IMG/VR virus record: IMGVR_UViG_3300044712_000622
Span: 1 to 21,036 of that record
DNA: 21,036 nucleotides
Reading direction: 5' to 3' (one strand)
Source of the DNA: a virus
The stretch's first letter is position 1. Each line of letters opens with the position of its first letter. Below are positions 8,069 to 21,036 of this stretch, in pieces. The position numbers and the translations under genes were made by a program. The notes under the pieces are model-generated. The model had not been told where the DNA came from and searched no databases. It saw nothing but the letters and a program-made list of their open reading frames with translations.

Positions 8069-10732
8069 ATGGAAAAAGATTATCATATTTATCTTGGTAT
8101 TTGTCTGGCAAATAATGATCCAGAAATGCGTGGTCGCATTAAAATTTACATACCACAATTAGCACCAACTATAAATGGACTAGAAGTTGGTGACAATCAA
8201 AATGTTGATAAATTTTTCAATTTTATTGGAACAAACAACGAAACTTCTAACGAAATTTCTAACAATTTACAGGCATTAAAAGATATACTTCCGTGGGCCG
8301 AATATGCTGGTCCAATATGTGGTGGAAATGCCTCTGGAAGATATAATGCAACACTTAAAACCGGAACTACGTCGGATTCAAATGCTTGGCAGGGAGACAA
8401 TTTAACAGACGGATTTAGACCGGCACAATTGTATGTTGGTGATCAAGCACATCCAGACGCATTTTCAGAAACTGGTATTCATAATAATAAGTTTGTAAAT
8501 CAATATGCTTATCAATACACTCCATCAAACTATTCAGGATTTGCAAGAGGACTATTTAGCATTCCAAATGTTGGAGCACACATATATGTATTCTTTATGG
8601 ATGGAGATAGAAATTTTCCAGTATATTTTGCGTCTGCCTATAGTCAAGAAGACATTAAACGTATATTTACATTAAATCAAGACGTTTCTGTTGATAGTAA
8701 TATGGACTATCCAGCAACATATGAAAACGTAGATAAGAAAAATTTAAAAGATGCTAATGTTAGAACATATCGATCTAAAACTGTACTTAATAGTAATAAA
8801 CATACTATTGAGGCAATTGATACCGATTTACACGAAATACTTAAATTCACACATTATTCGGGATCATTTAAAGAATTCAACAATTATGCAAATATTGAAT
8901 TGGCAACAAACAACGATCAAAAATTAGTTATTGGTGATCAATTTTTAACAGTACAAAAAAATCAAAGCGAATATATAAAAAAGCATCGTGAACTTATTGT
9001 CGGCGGCGATCATTATATAAACATAGGCGAAACAGATCATAATAAAGTAAAAGAAATATTAAATATTCATAAAAAAATTCATGAATATAAAATGTTATTT
9101 GACGTACAAAGAGCACAATATGGTGAAATGCCGCCGAATAATTTATCTCCAAAACAAATTCGTTCAGGAAAGTTTACCAAATGTCCAATTTGTCAAGGAA
9201 AGCCATATGATCCATATGATGAAAATTACGGTTCAGACATTTTAAATTTTTGGAAAGAAGCTCCAAAATACAGAGAAGATGTGTGCATGGCAGCAGCCAT
9301 ACCAGAAGAATTAACCGGAGAAGAGGCAAAAGAACAGGAACAGCAATTTAATACCTTTTTAACTGGAGATTGCCACAGCATCTATCTTGAAGGCGTGTCT
9401 GAACAAGAACAGCAAGAAAACGAGTATTGTCATCCAATCGAACACCCATATAAAGGACAAATAGGATATTATAAAGGAACGCGCTGTGCATGTTGCAATA
9501 ACGAGAATCAAGCAACAGGACAGAAAGCAACGCCGGGCGAATCTCCATCTACCGAATCTGGAGCATGGAAACCTGAACAAACTAAACAAGCTGGAAAAGA
9601 TTTAGACCAACTAATACTTTCATTAACTCCTGATTTGTTTAAACTTGAAAAAGAATTGGGCGCTGGCGGCGATGAAATTAAAACTGTTTCCATGAATAAA
9701 ATAGAAACTATTGGATTAACGATGAACGATATGCCATCTTTTAGAGTCGATCCAATTGGAAAATTAAAAATTGATGGATGTTGGGTGGCTCCACAGGGAA
9801 CCTATGATAATTTTCGACCATCTCCACATGTTGAATATGTTGATGTTGCAGACATACCGGGTGGCGATTATATTCTTACTTGTATGAATAAATATAAACT
9901 TCTTGTAGGTTCAAGAGGAATTAACATACAAACAACAGGTCCAATAGACATTTATGGCACCATTGTTAACTTTACTGCTGAACAATTAAATATTAGTTCA
10001 AAAAATGAAATTGTAATTGATGGTGGAGAAAGGTTGACGCTTAGAGCCAAAAAAATAACAGCACTTCCTGTAGAACATAATGCATTTGTTGTTGAAGGAT
10101 TATTACATGTTACAAGAAATGTTATTGTTGAAGGTGGATCGATGTATGAGGGAGAAGTTGCCATACTACACATAACAGCACCAATAGAATGGCAAGAAAC
10201 ACAATCCGCACTGTGGATGCCAACACCAGACGAAGCATGTACAATGCTGGCAATCATTAACGGAAAACAAGCCACCATATCATTACCAAGGCATACTCAT
10301 TGGTTTAAAAATCTACCATTAACATTGTTGCCGCATCCAGAAGCCGTAAGAGAGGCAATGATGACAAAGGGAATCAACTCCAGAAACAGAATTGCAGCAT
10401 CTTCAGCAGCTTCCAATCCAACCGGAAATTGTGATAGCAGCCTTATCGATTCAGTAGGTGAACAGTTTGATAATTATGCTTACGAGCAAGCAAACAAGGA
10501 CTATCAAGATCAAAGCGGCGATCCAAATCCATTACCAAAGGAAATAGATGGAGCAGGCACATATACAAGAAAGACATATAATTGTCGAACCATTGGAAAC
10601 GCTTTTAGTGGTGATGTTACCGAAGTTAAAATTTCATATTATTGGACCTACAAAGAGAAATATAATGGTAATTTTATTGTTGTGGGAACTGTTAGTAGTG
10701 GAAATCAAATAATAGATTTGGGGATTGCCTAA
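8069..10732 (+). CDS. 5: gp5-like baseplate hub / central spike protein
   Basis: This 887-aa protein has the gp5/VgrG plan: it forms the trimeric needle under the tail hub. The N-terminal OB-fold begins YLGICLANNDPEMRGRIKIYIPQL and closes with FSIPNVGAHIYVFFMDGD (163-180), with an extended loop between. Residues about 275-320 repeat short beta strands. An unusual Cys/His-rich insertion follows (C372 to C476). The beta-helix needle runs from about 560 to 745 (IDGGERLTLRA, VEGGSMYEGEVAI). The motif H742-T-H744 recalls the metal-binding HxH of spike tips such as P2 gpV. About 140 more residues follow, ending in a beta-rich segment. I see no lysozyme domain such as T4 gp5 carries (T4 gp5 is 575 aa). 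The ATG is one base after the previous stop, and the stop overlaps the next ATG. Confidence 0.82.
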   Translation: MEKDYHIYLGICLANNDPEMRGRIKIYIPQLAPTINGLEVGDNQNVDKFFNFIGTNNETSNEISNNLQALKDILPWAEYAGPICGGNASGRYNATLKTGTTSDSNAWQGDNLTDGFRPAQLYVGDQAHPDAFSETGIHNNKFVNQYAYQYTPSNYSGFARGLFSIPNVGAHIYVFFMDGDRNFPVYFASAYSQEDIKRIFTLNQDVSVDSNMDYPATYENVDKKNLKDANVRTYRSKTVLNSNKHTIEAIDTDLHEILKFTHYSGSFKEFNNYANIELATNNDQKLVIGDQFLTVQKNQSEYIKKHRELIVGGDHYINIGETDHNKVKEILNIHKKIHEYKMLFDVQRAQYGEMPPNNLSPKQIRSGKFTKCPICQGKPYDPYDENYGSDILNFWKEAPKYREDVCMAAAIPEELTGEEAKEQEQQFNTFLTGDCHSIYLEGVSEQEQQENEYCHPIEHPYKGQIGYYKGTRCACCNNENQATGQKATPGESPSTESGAWKPEQTKQAGKDLDQLILSLTPDLFKLEKELGAGGDEIKTVSMNKIETIGLTMNDMPSFRVDPIGKLKIDGCWVAPQGTYDNFRPSPHVEYVDVADIPGGDYILTCMNKYKLLVGSRGINIQTTGPIDIYGTIVNFTAEQLNISSKNEIVIDGGERLTLRAKKITALPVEHNAFVVEGLLHVTRNVIVEGGSMYEGEVAILHITAPIEWQETQSALWMPTPDEACTMLAIINGKQATISLPRHTHWFKNLPLTLLPHPEAVREAMMTKGINSRNRIAASSAASNPTGNCDSSLIDSVGEQFDNYAYEQANKDYQDQSGDPNPLPKEIDGAGTYTRKTYNCRTIGNAFSGDVTEVKISYYWTYKEKYNGNFIVVGTVSSGNQIIDLGIA

Positions 10733-13501: not shown

Positions 13502-14455
13502 TTATGCAACCGCTTTTTCTACTTGATCTACACTTTGTGGTTTATTCGTATTTTTTTGAAAAACCCCATTAAGTGTTTGTTTTAGTGACATATCTTTATC
13601 TGTTGTAGCAACAATTTTGCTACCAAAAGTTTTAACAGCGTCATCTAAAATTTGTCTGCTTTCTGTAATTAATTCTTGTATTCTTATATCAAACAAATAA
13701 GCATCAGGTATAACCTCTTCTCCTTGATCTGTTGCAATCATATTTAATTGTCCTAAATTTGAAATACTTAATTGTTGTATGACAGCAGCAGGACAGTATC
13801 TAACACCGGGTATAAGAACACTAAAAATCGCTGGTGGTGATGCTAAAATTGCAGTTCTCTGATCGTGTAGTGTTGACATCATCAATCTTCTTTTAAAACG
13901 CAAATTTTTAGTAATATCTTCTGAATACATTTTAGTTCCGTTTTGAATTGTATTAAATAATACAAATCTAATATTATAATCTGCTAATCCTGATCCAGAC
14001 CAAATTTGTGGTTGATTAACAGATGTACCTGGTGCTAATTGTAATATCTGTGCAGCTTGTCTTGCAAGATTCAATATTCTATCTGCAATTGGATAATCCA
14101 TTAATCCTTTTGTTTTTTCCCAAGTTTGATTTATAAAATGATCATATTCTTGAAAATATGGAAGAGTAAATACTATACCAGTTCTTTTTGCATGATATAA
14201 ATTAGCATAAGGATTTTCCGAAGATACAAAATTTCCTTGTGCCATATCTTTAACATTACTATACCAATATAATAATTGTGCATATAGTGTTGCAATATCT
14301 TGTTCATATTCGACCAATTGAATATAAGGGACTCCATATCTCTGACTAGGCGGCGTTACTGTCCAAGCATAATTATAAACAATATCAAAATCACCTTTAT
14401 CAACATCATATAACGGAATTTTTAATTCAGGACCAGTTAAAGTTATTTTAGACAT
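13502..14455 (-). CDS. gp48/gp54-like baseplate tail-tube initiator or cap
   Basis: The 317-aa length matches T4 gp54 (320 aa) better than gp48 (364 aa). These proteins sit on the hub and start tube polymerisation. The diagnostic part is in the second half: IPGVRYCPAAVIQQLSISNLG (about 215-235), then EEVIPDAYLFDIRIQELITESR (about 247-267). This is the P-G-x-x-x-P-A / P-D/E-A-x-x-x-x-I-x-I-x-E-L pattern of tube-initiator proteins. The first half is aromatic-rich and helical (YAQLLYWYSNVKDM). An AGAGG ribosome site lies six bases before ATG, and the start overlaps the tape measure stop by one base. The order tape measure then initiator matches T4 29-48-54. I cannot decide between gp48 and gp54 by eye. 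Confidence 0.65.
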   Translation of the reverse strand: MSKITLTGPELKIPLYDVDKGDFDIVYNYAWTVTPPSQRYGVPYIQLVEYEQDIATLYAQLLYWYSNVKDMAQGNFVSSENPYANLYHAKRTGIVFTLPYFQEYDHFINQTWEKTKGLMDYPIADRILNLARQAAQILQLAPGTSVNQPQIWSGSGLADYNIRFVLFNTIQNGTKMYSEDITKNLRFKRRLMMSTLHDQRTAILASPPAIFSVLIPGVRYCPAAVIQQLSISNLGQLNMIATDQGEEVIPDAYLFDIRIQELITESRQILDDAVKTFGSKIVATTDKDMSLKQTLNGVFQKNTNKPQSVDQVEKAVA

Positions 14456-16740
14456 TATACGCCTCTTTCCAATCTCTCATATATTTTTGTTCTATATTCA
14501 TATGCGGGATCACGAACATCAGTATTAGGAATACGTTTTTCATTCTTCTCTTGAATTGGAACCAAACTAGGCAAAAATCCCAATTGCTGTTGGTTTATGT
14601 TTGCAATATTAGCAAAAAGTTTTGTATGTTCATCTAAAACAGAAACCATCTTATTAAACTTATCATTTAATAATGTAAGTTGTTTTTCAACATTTTTAAA
14701 TGTTTTTCCTAATATATCATCTGGCTTTGCATAAATATCAGTTGATCCTGATCTATATAATCTATCTTCATTTGCTGGTTGATACGTTATAATTGCAGCT
14801 TTTGTTTTAACAGGTTTTGTTTCGGGTTTAGGAGAAGATGTATCATTTTCAATTTTATCTCCCTTAATCCATTTTTGCATACGTTCTGGTAATATAGATA
14901 AAATACCATTTTTTATACTATCACCAAGATTAACAATCCAATCGAAAAATTTTTTAAATCCGTTTTTAAATGCGTCTACAGTATCATTCCACTTATTAAT
15001 AACCCAATCGACAATTAATGATGCACCTTCACCAATAGCTTTTCCAAATGCAATAAACTTATCTTTTATCCACTTAAACGTCTTTGTTAAAAAGTTTAGA
15101 ATTAACCATGCGCCTTCACCAACAGCCTTTCCAAATGCAATAAATTTATGTGCAATAGTATCTAATATATTCCATAATACTTTTATACCTTTCCATAAAG
15201 CTTTTAAAGCTTCCCAAGTATAAAATGCTGCAATTCCCAACCATTCTCCAAGCTTAACAAAAGCATTCCATAATTTCTTTATGACATCTAAAATACCAGC
15301 TACAATCCAATCACCATTTTTAAATACCCATATAAGAACGTCTCCCAAAAGCGCCCCTATCCATTTTATACCTTCCCACACTCTTTTTAGTATTGGCAAT
15401 ACATTTTCTTTGAGCCATATTCCAAAATCTTTTAAAATAGGCATTACTTTTTTAGCAAATTCGCCAATAGCAGGCTTAAGTCCTTCATTCCACCACCTTT
15501 TTATACTGGTCCATATTTTTTCTAATTCCGGCAAAACTGAAGATTTAAACCATTCTCCAAGCTTATCAAATTTTTTAGCCAGTGCTTCGCCACCGATCCA
15601 TCCAAGTATGGCACCAACAGCGGCTCCCAATATTCCACCAATTAATGTACCAACAATCGGAACAATCATTGTTCCAAGACCAGCCCCAACCAAAGCCCAC
15701 TTTCCAGCATTTTTGAATGCGCCTTCCATTCCACTACTCAAGCCCCCCAATAACCCACCCAATCCAGCAGAAATCTTTGACGTTCCCCACTCTTCTGCTT
15801 TCATCCAACCTTTAATACCATCCATTGCCATCCAAACCAATCCACCAGCCAATAATGCAGGGCCGACCAACTTGCTTAAAAAGCTAGGCAATGCTTTTCC
15901 AGCAAACATTCCGCCTAATAATGAAGCTAAAAACCCTTTTTTGGGAGATTCTAATTCTTCGCCTTCTAAAGACGACGAACCCTTTCGTTTTACAGTTTTA
16001 TTATTCATATCTCCAAAAATAGATTTTAATTTATATATAGTTTGATCAGATATATCGACAACATTTACATCTAATGTTTGTTCAAAAACCGAATCAGCAG
16101 ATTCTGAAGATCGTGCGGAAGTCTGTTCAGAAGAACTATTTATTTTTTCAACTATTTCATCAATTTTTTTAGAAAATGTAGAAATTGATTTATCAATAAT
16201 TTTTATACTTTTATCAATTTTTAATATATCTATTGAAAAATTTTTAATAAAACTTTGAAATGGTTTATCTAATGTAAAAAATTTAATAAAGTTTTGAAAA
16301 TTCTTATCTAATGTAAAAAATTTAATAAAACGTTCAAAATCTTTATTAGCCATTAAATTAGCACTTCCTGTATTTGTAACAGAAGAACGAGAAAGAGCAC
16401 CCGCTCCTGCTCCAGTAGTTTTTGGTGCTATTGAAACTCCGCTAGTATCAAATTTTAATTTTCCAATTATTTCTTTTGCTTTTTTTTCTAAAAGTGTTTG
16501 AATATTAATTGAGTCTTTATCAATTTTAAGAGCTTTTTTAATCTTGTTTTCCCATTCATCGGCAATATCTTTAGTTTTTATTCTATTAAAAATGTTTTCA
16601 ATTTTGTCAGCTATTTCTTTTTGAATTGATGGGTTTTCAGTAAAAACGGCTTTAAACGTTTCTGAAATATCATAATCACCAGACCCTGTTAATGTTAAGT
16701 CTGGTGTCTCAAATGTTAAATTTATAGTTCCTGTAGCCAT
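14455..16740 (-). CDS. 29: Tape measure protein (gp29-like)
   Basis: The 761-aa protein has classic tape-measure features: a long helical body, a hydrophobic core and tandem repeats. It would set tail length (at about 0.15 nm per residue, roughly 110-115 nm) and may leave the virion during infection. A 13-residue repeat is at 138-176. Hydrophobic Gly/Ala-rich stretches are at about 272-305 and 350-385 (IVPIVGTLIGGILGAAVGAI), as expected for membrane insertion. From 390 to 605 there are many Trp-spaced helices (WFKSS, IWTSIKRWW, KRVWEGIKW, KALWKGIKVLW), including a long repeat KFIAFGKA(V/I)GEGA at 532 and 561. The C-terminal about 100 residues are charged and likely dock on the hub. No Shine-Dalgarno sequence is visible before ATG (AAAAAT only), which would keep output low, as suits a few copies per tail. 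Confidence 0.88.
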   Translation of the reverse strand: MATGTINLTFETPDLTLTGSGDYDISETFKAVFTENPSIQKEIADKIENIFNRIKTKDIADEWENKIKKALKIDKDSINIQTLLEKKAKEIIGKLKFDTSGVSIAPKTTGAGAGALSRSSVTNTGSANLMANKDFERFIKFFTLDKNFQNFIKFFTLDKPFQSFIKNFSIDILKIDKSIKIIDKSISTFSKKIDEIVEKINSSSEQTSARSSESADSVFEQTLDVNVVDISDQTIYKLKSIFGDMNNKTVKRKGSSSLEGEELESPKKGFLASLLGGMFAGKALPSFLSKLVGPALLAGGLVWMAMDGIKGWMKAEEWGTSKISAGLGGLLGGLSSGMEGAFKNAGKWALVGAGLGTMIVPIVGTLIGGILGAAVGAILGWIGGEALAKKFDKLGEWFKSSVLPELEKIWTSIKRWWNEGLKPAIGEFAKKVMPILKDFGIWLKENVLPILKRVWEGIKWIGALLGDVLIWVFKNGDWIVAGILDVIKKLWNAFVKLGEWLGIAAFYTWEALKALWKGIKVLWNILDTIAHKFIAFGKAVGEGAWLILNFLTKTFKWIKDKFIAFGKAIGEGASLIVDWVINKWNDTVDAFKNGFKKFFDWIVNLGDSIKNGILSILPERMQKWIKGDKIENDTSSPKPETKPVKTKAAIITYQPANEDRLYRSGSTDIYAKPDDILGKTFKNVEKQLTLLNDKFNKMVSVLDEHTKLFANIANINQQQLGFLPSLVPIQEKNEKRIPNTDVRDPAYEYRTKIYERLERGV
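15013..15147 (-). repeat. 87-bp period repeat inside the tape measure gene
   Basis: Two copies of KFIAFGKA(V/I)GEGA(W/S)LI lie 29 residues apart (residues 532-547 and 561-576). The DNA is nearly the same over about 40 bases (15023-15063 and 15110-15150 on the + strand). This suggests an internal duplication that lengthened the helical rod. Confidence 0.8.
16213..16329 (-). repeat. 39-bp tandem repeat inside the tape measure gene
   Basis: Three consecutive 13-residue units start FIKFFTLDK, FIKFFTLDK and FIKNFSIDI (residues 138-150, 151-163, 164-176). Units one and two share 26 identical bases (16304-16329 and 16265-16290). The third is diverged. The high DNA identity indicates a recent duplication. 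Confidence 0.85.
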
Positions 16741-16756: not shown

Positions 16757-16990
16757 CTATGTCGCAGGATTCTGAAAGGGACTATTCATTGGATCAATAG
16801 GGGTTCCAAGTATCATATCCTTTGGTGCATTATCCTTTTGTTGCTTGGCTTGCTCTTCTTTGGCATAGACAAGGTATATTTCCCGCTCAATAGGAGGCGT
16901 AGAATCTATGTAGGCAGCGTCGAACCCCAACTTGCTGACGAGAGTATAGGTTTCTCTCAAAATACGATTTAAATCGTCTTCAAACAATCC
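16757..16990 (-). CDS. -1 frame extension of the gp26-like chaperone (gp51/G-T-like)
   Basis: This open frame of about 76 residues lies directly after the gp26-like stop and before the tape measure, where lambda has T of the G/G-T chaperone pair and T4 has gene 51. It has no ATG start; the first possible start is TTG at 16987, with AGGG too close to serve. The frame is continuous upstream with the -1 frame of the gp26-like gene through a T_TTT_TTT slippery site at 17005-17011. It would therefore be made as a 365-aa fusion reading SFF-YSFLKG-LFEDDLNRIL. The residues are acidic N-terminally (EDDLNRILRETYTLV), then PPIEREIYLVYAKEEQAKQQK and a Pro/Asn-rich tail. GC is clearly higher here than in its neighbours. 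Confidence 0.7.
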   Translation of the reverse strand, partial: GLFEDDLNRILRETYTLVSKLGFDAAYIDSTPPIEREIYLVYAKEEQAKQQKDNAPKDMILGTPIDPMNSPFQNPAT

Positions 16991-16992
16991 CT

Positions 16993-17853
16993 TTAGGAAA
17001 CTGTAAAAAAACTGGCATCTATCTTTAACCTTTGCTCAACAGTAACCTTTTCGTTGATAACTTCCTTAAAAAGTATTACCTTTTCAAATTCTTTGTTTAC
17101 CTGATTAATATAATTAATAATCATATTATTAATTTTAGCTGGAATCTTTGACATAATTGTTAAACGATCTACAAATTTCAAATCTTTTAAGTTTAATTCA
17201 ATAATTTCACCATTTTCATTTTTAATATTAATTTGTTTAATATATTTTACAATTTCGTTGGTAAATACCTCACCAACCGTTTCTCTTAATTCTTTTTCGT
17301 TTTTGATTTCAATTGATGTGACATTTCGACGCAGTTCTGATTCCAGCTTAAATTCGTCGTTTATTGTTGGCAATCCACAAAAAATTTGAAACATTTCTTT
17401 ATCATCTTTGAGAACTGCTGAACCGATTTGAATTTCAGAAATAGCTGTATTAATTAAATCTTTGAGATTTATACGACGAGTAATCTTTTCAGGAGGATTT
17501 GTGTTTGGTACTTCAAAAACCAAGTCTAAATCATTACTAATGCTCATTGCTCGCATTGTCATGGCAACAATCATTTTATCAAAAATTGTAAATTCGCCAA
17601 CATCAACAGAATTATCTACACAGTTTTCTTTAATAATTTCACGCAATGTAAAAATAAATTCAGTATTATATGCCGGTGAATCAATAATGGCCTTTAATAA
17701 CCTTTTTTGTTGTGAAGTGTTAATTTCTCTAAACATTAAATTCTTATTAAGAGAAGGAATAAAAATCTCATATACAAATGTTTCATTTGCTCGATTAATA
17801 ATTTTTATTATGTCATTAAGTGTACCGGTTTTTTGTTGAATAGTATCTGTCAT
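16993..17853 (-). CDS. 26: gp26-like tape-measure chaperone / baseplate hub assembly protein
   Basis: This 286-aa protein lies just upstream of the tape measure; T4 gp26 is 208 aa. The N-terminal part YEIFIPSLNKNLMFREINTSQQKRLLKAIIDS (residues about 28-60) matches the common start of this family, a beta hairpin followed by a helix carrying Q-Q-K-x-L-L-K. TIFDKMIVAMTMRAMSISNDL follows. The rest is helical and charged. Such proteins are thought to hold the tape measure during tail assembly and not to remain in the virion. A good AGAGGA ribosome site precedes ATG 17853, with a TAAATATT element 19 bases further up. The gene ends with the slippery heptamer described for the extension, so it probably yields two products, 286 aa and about 365 aa. 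Confidence 0.65.
   Translation of the reverse strand: MTDTIQQKTGTLNDIIKIINRANETFVYEIFIPSLNKNLMFREINTSQQKRLLKAIIDSPAYNTEFIFTLREIIKENCVDNSVDVGEFTIFDKMIVAMTMRAMSISNDLDLVFEVPNTNPPEKITRRINLKDLINTAISEIQIGSAVLKDDKEMFQIFCGLPTINDEFKLESELRRNVTSIEIKNEKELRETVGEVFTNEIVKYIKQINIKNENGEIIELNLKDLKFVDRLTIMSKIPAKINNMIINYINQVNKEFEKVILFKEVINEKVTVEQRLKIDASFFTVS
17005..17011 (-). promoter_or_regulatory. Programmed -1 frameshift site T_TTT_TTT
   Basis: On the - strand the 0-frame reads AGT TTT TTT ACA, four codons before the stop. Seven T in this register allow both tRNAs to re-pair after a one-base backward slip, after which TAC AGT TTC enters the downstream open frame. A short hairpin TTCC-TAAA-GGGA lies five to six bases downstream, and an AAAGG Shine-Dalgarno-like site lies 17 bases upstream. 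Both are weak stimulators. Confidence 0.65.
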
Positions 17854-17895: not shown

Positions 17896-19422
17896 TCAAG
17901 CGGTCTTTTTGTGCATAGGAGTATCGTCTTCATTAATTGATTTTTCTTCTACATTTAGTCCTTCGGCAGACGAAAGCGCATTTTCTGTTATAGCATCGGC
18001 TTGATTGTTCTTTTTAACCACATCTTCGTGATTTATTTCACCATTACGAACATCGTTTATTGAAGCATTTGGTCGTACTAAATTATATTTTAATTTTGTA
18101 TTAGACATAACGGTATCTGCATTGGCATCCGAAGTTCGCTTTTCAATGGATCGATTAACTTGTAAATTGCTTATATTATCGTTGGAATTGGTTAAAATAT
18201 TGACATTTACTTCTGCTGGTTTTCCCTTTGTCTGTTGTTCAATATTTTTTGCATAATGAGTATAATCATTCTCATTAATTTTCTTTTCTACATAGTGACC
18301 AAAAGAAGTACCAGTGCTATTACGTTCAATAATATCAATCGAAGCTCCAGTTGTCTTATCCGCATTCAATAACGGTCTGCTAATTTCATCTTTAGAACTT
18401 GTATTTCCAATTGCTCTATTTGTAAAATCATTAATTTCGTCTGTTAATCCAGTTCCCAATCCGGCAACATATCCTTCCGCGCCATTAATAGCATTATCAA
18501 CGGCTCCCTGTATTGTTCCGGCAACATTTGTTACAATTCCAGTAGCAGTTCCAGCCAATACGTCTTTTCCAAAGTTAGCCGCCTGATCAATAGCATTTTG
18601 AATATATTGCTCTGTAGCAGATACTATACCCCTATCAAAGCTAACGCCGAGTTGTCTTTCCAATTCATCTTTTAATCGATCACCAAGACTTTCAAAATAT
18701 CCCTTTGTAGCACCACTAACACTAATAAGATTCAATAGTGTGGTTTCTGTTGGAATGAGACTATAATGGCTAAAGGCAAACTGTACAGTTCTTATGCGAT
18801 ACATATCCGAACCGGAATAATTATATTCTTGTTCGTCTATATTTACAGGACAACAACCATAATATCTTACAGCCTTTCTTTTAGCTAACGGATTTTTGGG
18901 ACCAGTTTTTGCTAAAAATATAATATCAATATCTGTTTTTAATGTTTGATTTTTTAAACTTTCATGCGATACGGCAACCTGCCACGGACGCAATACATAA
19001 TCAACAAAAGATACATTATTTTCAACAAAAGCAATATTTAATAATGGAAAACCAGTTCTACCTTGTCCAACTATACCCTGAATATATCCAGTATTTTTAA
19101 TACCTTCTCTAGTAATATCGACAGAATCCCCAACAATTTTTACTCCAGTTGCTATTATTAATCCCTTTGTATTATTAATAATTGCTTTAGATTTAATAAA
19201 AGTATCTTGAAGTCCCTTCCACCCTTCTTTTGGTTCAACATAATTATTAATAATATCTATCGGAACGTTTGTTAGCGTTGCCAACCACATACTATTAATT
19301 GGCAGAGCGTTTGCAGTTACTAAGAAAGAAGAATAAAAAGCATCATAAAAATTTGTATATTGCCCCATTCCACGGTTTGTAGCATCGCTAGTAAATGGAT
19401 TTTTTAAATTAATAAGAGCCAT
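17896..19422 (-). CDS. Tail-tube-fold protein with long C-terminal extension (gp48/gp19-related)
   Basis: The 508-aa protein carries a tail-tube-like module at about residues 85-222. It contains KIVGDSVDITREG, a loop with GQGRTGFP, FVDYVLRPWQVAVSH, then KTDIDIIFL, AVRYYGCCPVNIDEQEYNY and RTVQFAFSHYS. This order (strand-helix W, long strand, P-V-x-I-x-x-x-x-Y, final aromatic strand) is that of phage tube proteins. The main tube protein of T4 is only 163 aa. Here about 280 residues follow: an Ala/Gly-rich amphipathic part (about 262-330), then a polar Asn/Ser/Glu-rich tail to the end. It follows the sheath gene, as tube genes do. It could be a tube cap (gp48-like), a tail terminator-side tube protein, or an expanded tube protein. 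A second short possible tube gene may lie outside the window. Confidence 0.62.
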   Translation of the reverse strand: MALINLKNPFTSDATNRGMGQYTNFYDAFYSSFLVTANALPINSMWLATLTNVPIDIINNYVEPKEGWKGLQDTFIKSKAIINNTKGLIIATGVKIVGDSVDITREGIKNTGYIQGIVGQGRTGFPLLNIAFVENNVSFVDYVLRPWQVAVSHESLKNQTLKTDIDIIFLAKTGPKNPLAKRKAVRYYGCCPVNIDEQEYNYSGSDMYRIRTVQFAFSHYSLIPTETTLLNLISVSGATKGYFESLGDRLKDELERQLGVSFDRGIVSATEQYIQNAIDQAANFGKDVLAGTATGIVTNVAGTIQGAVDNAINGAEGYVAGLGTGLTDEINDFTNRAIGNTSSKDEISRPLLNADKTTGASIDIIERNSTGTSFGHYVEKKINENDYTHYAKNIEQQTKGKPAEVNVNILTNSNDNISNLQVNRSIEKRTSDANADTVMSNTKLKYNLVRPNASINDVRNGEINHEDVVKKNNQADAITENALSSAEGLNVEEKSINEDDTPMHKKTA

Positions 19423-19448: not shown

Positions 19449-21036
19449 CTATCCAATTAATTCTTCAAAGTTTTGATCGGTATTTGTGGAATAAAATGTT
19501 ACAAGAATAAATTCAGCAGTACGAACCGGCTTAATATAAATATCAACCTTCATTTCATTGTTATCAATAACTGTTGGAGTATTGTTTTTTTCATTGCAAA
19601 GAATCATATAATCATAACAACCGCTATTATTTTTAGCTAAATCGAAAATAGGATTTAAGTTATTTACAACACGACTTCTTGTAGAAACTGTATTTGGCTC
19701 TCCAACAAAATAACGCAATGTTTTTAGTGTTGATCTTTCTAATGCTAAAAACAATCTTCTAACATTTAATCTGTCAAACGCAGAAGGTTTGGCCTGAAGC
19801 GTTTTTTGCCCCCAAACCACATAGCCGCCACGCGGAAAATATACAACAGGATTTACACCAATTCGATATAATGTATCTTGTTGTGATTGATTGGTTTTTA
19901 ATGCAATATCAGTAACATTTTGAACAATGCCATTGTTCAAACCAAACGGAGCATACCAAGGACGATATCTAGAATCCATACGAGCAGTAATAGCTGCTTG
20001 CCATGCCGAAAACGGTAACCATACAAACTTACCAGTTGCACCGTCATAGATACTAATCCAATTTGCATAAGTTGCCGCATAATTGGAATTTGCCTTTGCA
20101 TAAAGATTTTTTAAAGGCGTATAAATATGAGATGTAAAATTACGATCCGAACGATCTAAAGTTTTTGATTTTTCGCCTTGAACAAATACACACCTTAATG
20201 GATCAGAATAATGTATACAATCTTTTCTTGTTGTTGTACAAAATGTATTATATAAGTCGAATATAGTCTTATGATATTGGGCAAATAAGGATTGTTCGCC
20301 AGTACTTGGATTACAAAGCTCTGATAATCGGGTTGTAATATTTGCAGCATCATCAAACGTTTGTACACCATTCGCATCAGCAACATAAGCCCATATTGTT
20401 TCCAATCCCGCCCCAATAACAATATCAATATCTATTGATTGTAAATCATCTGCCAATGTTAATGCTCGTTCGATCTTAGACGGAACATTACCAATATATT
20501 TTAAATTATTATCAACAGTTTTTCTTGGAGTATATGCACCAACAGGATATAATTTTTTACTTAAATTGATAATATTATCAATAGTTATTTGATTGGCAAT
20601 TTTATTATTTACAACCATTTTCAAATAATTTGATTTTTGGTTAATAGTATCAGATAAGAAAAATGAATCCATTTCTCTGGTTGTATTGTTGGCACGCTGA
20701 TCATTAACCGCTAACGAACCAATATAGTGTTCAACTGGAATATAAAATAATTTATCAGTTTCGGCTTCCAATGGAGAAGATCGCATTCTAAATAAGTATA
20801 AAATTAAAGAATCATTATAAAACGAATTCGAAAAATCATAATTATAACTAGTTTCAATAACTTTAGAAATGCTGTCTTTTGATGTTACGATGGAATCTGT
20901 TCCAGTTAATGGGAATAATAACAAATCGGTGTCTAATGTTATTTTACTATTATTACTTGATATTGTTTTAATTTCAGTAATGCAATCATATGTTCCTTCA
21001 ATAATATGTGAATTATCGGCAATTCCAACATAATAT
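19449..21036 (-). CDS. 18: Tail sheath protein, gp18-like (5' end outside window)
   Basis: The frame is open to the window edge (reading YYVGIADNSHIIEG at the edge), so the gene begins outside the window and at least 528 residues are present. A TTG near 20924 is inside the frame and is not the start. The sheath signature is in the C-terminal part: FVWLPFSAWQAAITARMDSR, then RPWYAPFGLNNGIV, VNPVVYFPRGGYVVWGQKTL, RLNVRRLFLALERSTLK and RYFVGEPN. These form the conserved inner domain and the C-terminal arm that link subunits of contractile sheaths, including T4 gp18 and pyocin-type sheaths. The region before it (about residues 190-310) holds the variable outer domain with several cysteines (FCTTTRKDC, DPLRC). 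The protein contracts on infection to drive the tube through the cell envelope. Confidence 0.93.
   Translation of the reverse strand, partial: YYVGIADNSHIIEGTYDCITEIKTISSNNSKITLDTDLLLFPLTGTDSIVTSKDSISKVIETSYNYDFSNSFYNDSLILYLFRMRSSPLEAETDKLFYIPVEHYIGSLAVNDQRANNTTREMDSFFLSDTINQKSNYLKMVVNNKIANQITIDNIINLSKKLYPVGAYTPRKTVDNNLKYIGNVPSKIERALTLADDLQSIDIDIVIGAGLETIWAYVADANGVQTFDDAANITTRLSELCNPSTGEQSLFAQYHKTIFDLYNTFCTTTRKDCIHYSDPLRCVFVQGEKSKTLDRSDRNFTSHIYTPLKNLYAKANSNYAATYANWISIYDGATGKFVWLPFSAWQAAITARMDSRYRPWYAPFGLNNGIVQNVTDIALKTNQSQQDTLYRIGVNPVVYFPRGGYVVWGQKTLQAKPSAFDRLNVRRLFLALERSTLKTLRYFVGEPNTVSTRSRVVNNLNPIFDLAKNNSGCYDYMILCNEKNNTPTVIDNNEMKVDIYIKPVRTAEFILVTFYSTNTDQNFEELIG

Follow-up and report, generated by a model that had tools for sequence, protein, structure and literature searches.

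A predicted −1 frameshift in a gp26/gp51-type tail assembly chaperone gene of an uncultured T4-superfamily phage clade

Introduction

The abstract of Vladimirov, Gautam and Davidson (2022, Virology 566:9-15) reportedly states that frameshifting is conserved in several T4-like groups and that T4 uses genes 26 and 51. In phage lambda, a short form, gpG, and a −1-extended form, gpGT, are encoded between the tail tube and tape measure genes (Xu, Hendrix, Duda 2004; PMC5009743), and a 2016 review described the G-T frameshift as widely conserved 'except T4' (PMC5009743). A poly-T −1 slippery site in the TAC-N genes of T4-like phages is credited to Vladimirov et al. 2022 by PMC12846349, and PMC10885494 cites the same authors for T4-like phages in which the short and long forms have a gene each. 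At the tail assembly chaperone (TAC) locus of phage Adele, Vandenendeviridae and Andersonviridae, a −1 shift was inferred from a conserved GTTTTT and an uninterrupted −1 frame (PMC12846349).

The locus described here resembles lambda in its position, Adele in the kind of evidence it offers, and the T4-like TAC genes of Vladimirov 2022, as they are cited, in combining a gp26/gp51-type chaperone with a poly-T −1 site. With a probability of roughly 0.92, we take it to be the TAC gene of a contractile-tailed phage of the T4 superfamily, which would produce TAC-N, the short isoform, and a minority of −1 frameshifted TAC-NC. We infer the slippage, its efficiency and the chaperone role.

Results

Gene neighbourhood and structure of the junction

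The window, the whole stretch of DNA analysed, is a 21,036-base IMG/VR virus fragment. It encodes a UvsX-like recombinase and sheath, tube, gp25-like wedge and hub proteins, which identifies the virus as a T4-superfamily myovirus. The features of the chaperone locus are as follows.

14455..16740, minus strand: tape measure protein gene, the expected chaperone client (PHROG tape measure families, best E 9e-8)
16757..17005, minus strand: predicted −1-frame extension, gp51-like TAC-C domain, 82 aa plus stop, beginning YSFLKGLF (phrog_634, dN, profile match)
16985..16987, minus strand: TTG, candidate start of the small ORF, judged unused (sequence)
16993..17005, minus strand: dual-coded stretch, both frames used after a slip (sequence)
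16993..17853, minus strand: gp26-like gene, TAC-N, 286 aa (ORF; ATG preceded by GAGGAA)
17005..17011, minus strand: slippery heptamer T_TTT_TTT in the 0-frame register, encoding Phe-Phe (sequence; conservation)
17896..19422, minus strand: tail tube-like gene, upstream of the chaperone gene (phrog_45 tail tube, E 4e-6)
19449..21035, minus strand: tail sheath gene, 5' end cut by the window (phrog_23 tail sheath, E 4e-60)

The chaperone gene sits between the tail tube and sheath genes and the tape measure gene. The small −1 ORF directly precedes the latter, as the sequence-only reading had claimed, with a gap of 16 bases to a gene that matches PHROG tape measure families. The tape measure ATG (16740), 16 bases past the end of the −1 ORF, lacks a Shine-Dalgarno-like sequence, and coupling of its translation to frameshifted ribosomes is therefore conceivable. 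In one relative of the window, on the contig that carries locus L127, a homing-endonuclease-like ORF of about 600 aa, recognised by eye, lies between the sheath and tail tube genes (L009:9672-11483).

The 286-aa ORF (17853-16993, minus strand) terminates in AGT TTT TTT ACA GTT TCC TAA. The AGT codon occupies 17013-17011, the heptamer 17011-17005 and the 0-frame stop TAA 16995-16993. Re-reading the sequence bore out what had been claimed for this gene end, its coordinates and its frames, and the T run at 17005-17011 indeed forms an X_XXY_YYZ heptamer in the 0-frame register. The −1 frame, said to be open from the slip site through the stop at 16757, is open already from 17035 and closes with TAG at 16759-16757. 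The predicted fusion has the claimed length of about 365 aa, 283 from the 0 frame and 82 from the −1 frame.

How readily such a junction arises by chance was estimated within the window. Runs of at least seven A/T are common (19 in the window). By codon shuffle, an in-frame heptamer of six or more T falls within the last 12 codons in 2.6% of cases (P 0.026), and a first-order Markov model puts the probability of an open frame of 85 codons at 6.5e-4. The same scan over the whole window passes one other gene end, TTT GGG G at 10729. At that site, the −1 frame is the next ORF of annotated size, with its own ATG. The T7 run and the open −1 frame are by themselves suggestive, a lead that becomes decisive once homologues are added. 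Since A/T runs are common in this AT-rich window, conservation must decide on the frameshift.

Conservation within the clade

Relatives were collected by an alignment-based search with the sheath protein, which gave 80 loci, and the chaperone gene was then located with N and C profiles. Neither the gp26-like protein nor the protein encoded at 13502-14455 gave a match when scanned as a single sequence against viral contigs, and an alignment scan returned the L003 contig alone. The L003 homologue of TAC-N is 77% identical to that of the window, with synonymous sites saturated. It retains AGT TTT TTT ACA, the open −1 frame, and a poor TTG as the sole start of the small ORF.

An N gene followed by a −1-frame C ORF defines the A-type locus. 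Exactly seven T, in frame, are found in all A-type loci with a complete junction, namely the window and 11 other contigs (L003, L138, L140, L143, L144, L145, L147, L149, L151, L168, and L191; L138/L140 and L143/L144 are near-identical pairs). A homologous −1 ORF is present in every A-type locus whose contig runs on; L140 is cut by the contig end. The codon before the heptamer is AGT, AAT or GAT. The sequence-only reading had proposed aligning homologous loci, and the alignment came out as it predicted: heptamer and open −1 frame alike persist across homologues, and the small ORF has no conserved start codon.

An assembly or sequencing error would place the true T run at six or eight, leaving the gene plainly fused or broken. 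A homopolymer beside a frame break invites this suspicion, as do relatives with one fused ORF. Against it, the arrangement, with a comparable spacing to the 0-frame stop, recurs in independent contigs from many metagenomes and in isolate genomes. The shared seven T in independent contigs dispose of this earlier worry, and we regard the chance of such an error as practically nil.

Conservation in wider T4-like phages

The motif T_TTT_TTC/T is kept by every one of the 66 unique loci surveyed from Kyanoviridae, a Methylophilales phage, Straboviridae, Menderavirus, and the window clade. Its holders include S-ShM2, MC09, Melnitz-2, Cronobacter LPCS28, Aeromonas CC2, KVP40, Stenotrophomonas Ps15, and cyanophage-like loci from IMG/VR. 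In these gp26 genes, the heptamer lies 7-16 bases ahead of the stop and is followed by a −1 ORF of about 56-66 codons (in two of the wider loci the sequence breaks off ahead of the gp26 stop, and in three within the −1 ORF). The codon before Phe-Phe in the 66 unique loci is AGT, TCT, AAT, GAT or GCT, the third base being invariably T. Over 33 clusters, which are not independent and from which relatedness is not removed, the product of the codon-usage probabilities is 2e-17. The heptamer is absent from the gp26 homologues of Vibrio D495 (L115) and Kuttervirus ST-W77 (L116), and from T4.

The wider loci bear on transcriptional slippage, in which RNA polymerase would stutter on the T7 run and produce some mRNAs with one U more or less, joining the frames with no ribosomal slip. 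A seven-base homopolymer in all A-type loci of the window clade would suit this mechanism. However, the cyanophage and Straboviridae sites are mostly T6C, which is shorter than the runs usually needed for transcriptional slippage, and they keep the codon register for tandem tRNA slippage. The run also never exceeds seven in the window clade. We therefore regard polymerase stuttering as highly improbable and favour a slip of the ribosome.

Selection and initiation in the −1 ORF

Between the window and L003, the −1 ORF has a dN of 0.13 with dS saturated; the other two frames contain stops and display no such dN/dS pattern. On this comparison, the −1 ORF is judged to be under purifying selection. 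The extension has a PHROG hit, phrog_634 ('baseplate hub assembly catalyst', gp51), at an E value of 9e-4. The overlapping frame shows coding selection with no conserved start codon.

The main alternative to a frameshift is a pair of separate genes, the small ORF being translated independently, either beginning at TTG 16987 or through termination-reinitiation at the stop of gp26, to yield a free gp51-like protein. Many cyanophages have an ATG 15 nt past the slip site and a separately annotated gp51, and the 0-frame stop and the TTG are near each other in the window and L003. The TTG at 16987-16985, common to these two, is nevertheless not conserved in the clade, and in the window it follows AAAGGG by one base, too close for normal initiation. 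The claim that the small ORF lacks an ATG, a GTG or a usable ribosome site at its start stands, this TTG being the sole nearby candidate. The start varies across the loci, with ATG in some, TTG in others, and none within about 60 bases in several; in several A-type loci, the first 48-70 bases after the slip site contain no −1-frame start codon. In L091-L098, L100, and Melnitz-2, the slip site is precisely where the −1 frame becomes open, and no start codon occurs until 63 bases further along, which leaves the shift as the sole plausible route of expression. Separate genes would, moreover, have no use for the heptamer, which is kept everywhere, and the two parts also occur as natural single-ORF fusions. 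Taken together, these points make separate translation very unlikely, and we retain the frameshift as the preferred reading.

The records of two isolate phages, Cronobacter LPCS28 and Aeromonas CC2, carry no annotation for the gp26 −1 extension and show a gap before the next gene (L111:2224-2386 and L113:2206-2372).

Possible stimulators of the slip

No conserved 3' RNA element was found in the window or its relatives, and the structure z score downstream of the site, −0.78, is not significant. A GGAGGG 9-10 nt upstream of the slip site is clear in many cyanophages and weak in the window. This spacing is near the geometry of the dnaX stimulator. A dnaX-like stimulated site combines a Shine-Dalgarno-like element about 10 nt upstream with downstream RNA structure, and the window lacks this combination. 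At L001:4662-4680 and other Kyanoviridae loci (among L029-L089), the Glu codon within GGAGGG at this spacing is written GAG more often than elsewhere in the genes.

Homology and predicted structure of the two parts

The gp26-like ORF matches cyanophage gp26 weakly by BLAST and clearly by profile. The A-type N profile aligns with cyanophage gp26 at 97.0% (E 9e-11), and the C profile with cyanophage gp51 at 93.2% (E 3e-7). The cyanophage TAC-N (gp26) profile in turn matches T4 gp26 (98.1%, E 8e-14), and a joined cyanophage/Straboviridae profile matches T4 gp51 (95.7%, E 9e-9). Compared directly by profile, the window family shows no significant match to T4 gp26 or gp51; it can be linked to both through cyanophage and B-type proteins, the latter described below. 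From the joined-profile match to gp51 and the cyanophage gp26 match to T4 gp26, T4 gp51 is taken to be the long form in one piece and T4 gp26 the short form. PMC10885494 cites a published view that is in line with this assignment.

Over its whole length, a virtual A-type fusion can be aligned with the single-ORF TAC-NC proteins of the B type (HHalign 99.9%, E 4e-32) and the C type (98.5%, E 2e-15), and also matches the cyanophage/Straboviridae fusion (98.6%, E 8e-16). This full-length profile alignment with single-ORF homologues shows the extension and TAC-N to be parts of one protein, of which the extension is the C-terminal domain. In sister lineages, the two parts are uninterrupted within a single ORF; the 365-aa fusion thus exists naturally.

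The AlphaFold2 (AF2) model of the window TAC-N is a confident one, with a pLDDT of 85.2 and a pTM of 0.82. In BFVD, its fold is similar to those predicted for baseplate hub subunits and hub assembly proteins of T4-like phages (55 hits at E <= 1e-3). A fold search of the PDB with the same model matched no solved structure. The model of a B-type long form (pLDDT 82) has N-terminal elements in much the same order, with a helical C domain after them.

Three architectures in one uncultured clade

The clade contains three architectures. The A type, in the window and its relatives, is the frameshift arrangement. The B type consists of tandem genes, a single-ORF TAC-NC followed by a TAC-N without the C part (L153, L155, L161-L164, L167, L169, L172, L174, L178, L192, and L193; the evidence is weaker for L173, L184, and L190). 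The C type has one fused TAC-NC (L010, L011, L013, L016, L017, L019-L027, L166, L183, and L185-L187); L160 and L171 were left out of this type, as they end before a second gene could appear.

The B-type TAC-N ends at the point where the slip would occur, and the heptamer is absent. Four B-type TAC-N genes keep Phe-Phe as TTC TTC or TTC TTT, which breaks the heptamer. With a separate TAC-NC gene present and the heptamer gone, these loci serve as a good negative control for its role in frameshifting. In nine loci (L153, L161, L163, L167, L169, L174, L178, L192, and L193), the tandem TAC-NC and TAC-N genes form a solution like T4 26/51, apparently of separate origin.

Neither single-sequence nor profile searches found a second TAC-N in the C-type contigs, which are incomplete fragments, the ones searched whole measuring 39-92 kb. 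An internal slippery site that would shorten the fused protein was sought and rejected; T_TTA_AAA is present in some loci, where it is not conserved and lacks an early stop. In eight C-type loci (L010, L011, L013, L016, L017, L020, L022, and L026), the fused TAC-NC gene, with no slippery site, directly follows the tail tube gene. The next gene in the same eight, at the expected tape measure position, encodes 450-495 aa and is Pro/Glu-rich in several.

A sheath tree was rooted with RB3, syn9, QD01, S-SRM01, and IBB_35. The A-type loci are basal and the B and C types form one clade (95/93); monophyly of the A type has an AU p of 0.17 on this tree, which has long branches. With A basal and B and C in one clade, frameshifting looks ancestral and the two-gene design looks derived separately from that of T4, to the extent that the long branches and this AU p allow. 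A further scenario is possible but doubtful: the tandem TAC-NC/TAC-N pair may have replaced the frameshift independently of T4, and the C-type lineage may then have kept the fused long form alone. If so, that lineage would rely on one chaperone isoform alone for tail building, and the rule of a set ratio of two isoforms would not be universal.

Discussion

The preferred reading, a programmed −1 frameshift, implies the following course of events. The majority of ribosomes would terminate at 16993 and produce the 286-aa TAC-N. A minority would slip back one base, with two tRNA-Phe moving simultaneously on U_UUU_UUU, and continue in the −1 frame to yield the 365-aa TAC-NC, with an added C-terminal domain predicted to be helical. 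On the model of lambda gpG/gpGT, many TAC-N would coat the tape measure protein, few TAC-NC would recruit tail tube subunits to it, and both isoforms would depart before the tail is completed. The likeness to the G/G-T chaperones that was first proposed is supported by the gene position, the conserved in-frame heptamer, and the coding-selected −1 frame.

On this reading, the known range of the tail-chaperone frameshift grows by an uncultured, separate branch of the T4 superfamily. The small ORFs that many cyanophage records list as separate 'gp51' genes, and those without annotation in phages such as Aeromonas CC2 and Cronobacter LPCS28, probably encode the ends of frameshift products. Frameshift, tandem genes, and a single fused gene among relatives also provide a natural experiment on why two isoforms are kept. 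No report of the A/B/C series or of a possible single-isoform lineage was found in the literature searched.

The locus differs from the described systems in several respects. Lambda gpG/gpGT uses a different heptamer, and no sequence or solved-structure match to it was found. Adele and the Vandenendeviridae and Andersonviridae belong to other phage families and carry a GTTTTT motif, whereas the window has the full T_TTT_TTT heptamer. T4 genes 26 and 51 are separate, divergently oriented, and without a slippery site, unlike the window locus. The sequence-only reading had set these separate T4 genes beside a single frameshifted gene; its account of T4 is correct, but the link is not new, being the subject of Vladimirov, Gautam, and Davidson 2022, as that work is cited. 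The window belongs to an uncultured clade, with a sheath at most about 37% identical to those of isolates over the matched part. What is new here is a further clade with the series of frameshift, tandem two-gene, and single-fused-gene loci: beyond the frameshifted TAC genes of Vladimirov 2022, as cited, the window clade also contains tandem TAC-NC/TAC-N pairs and a single fused TAC-NC.
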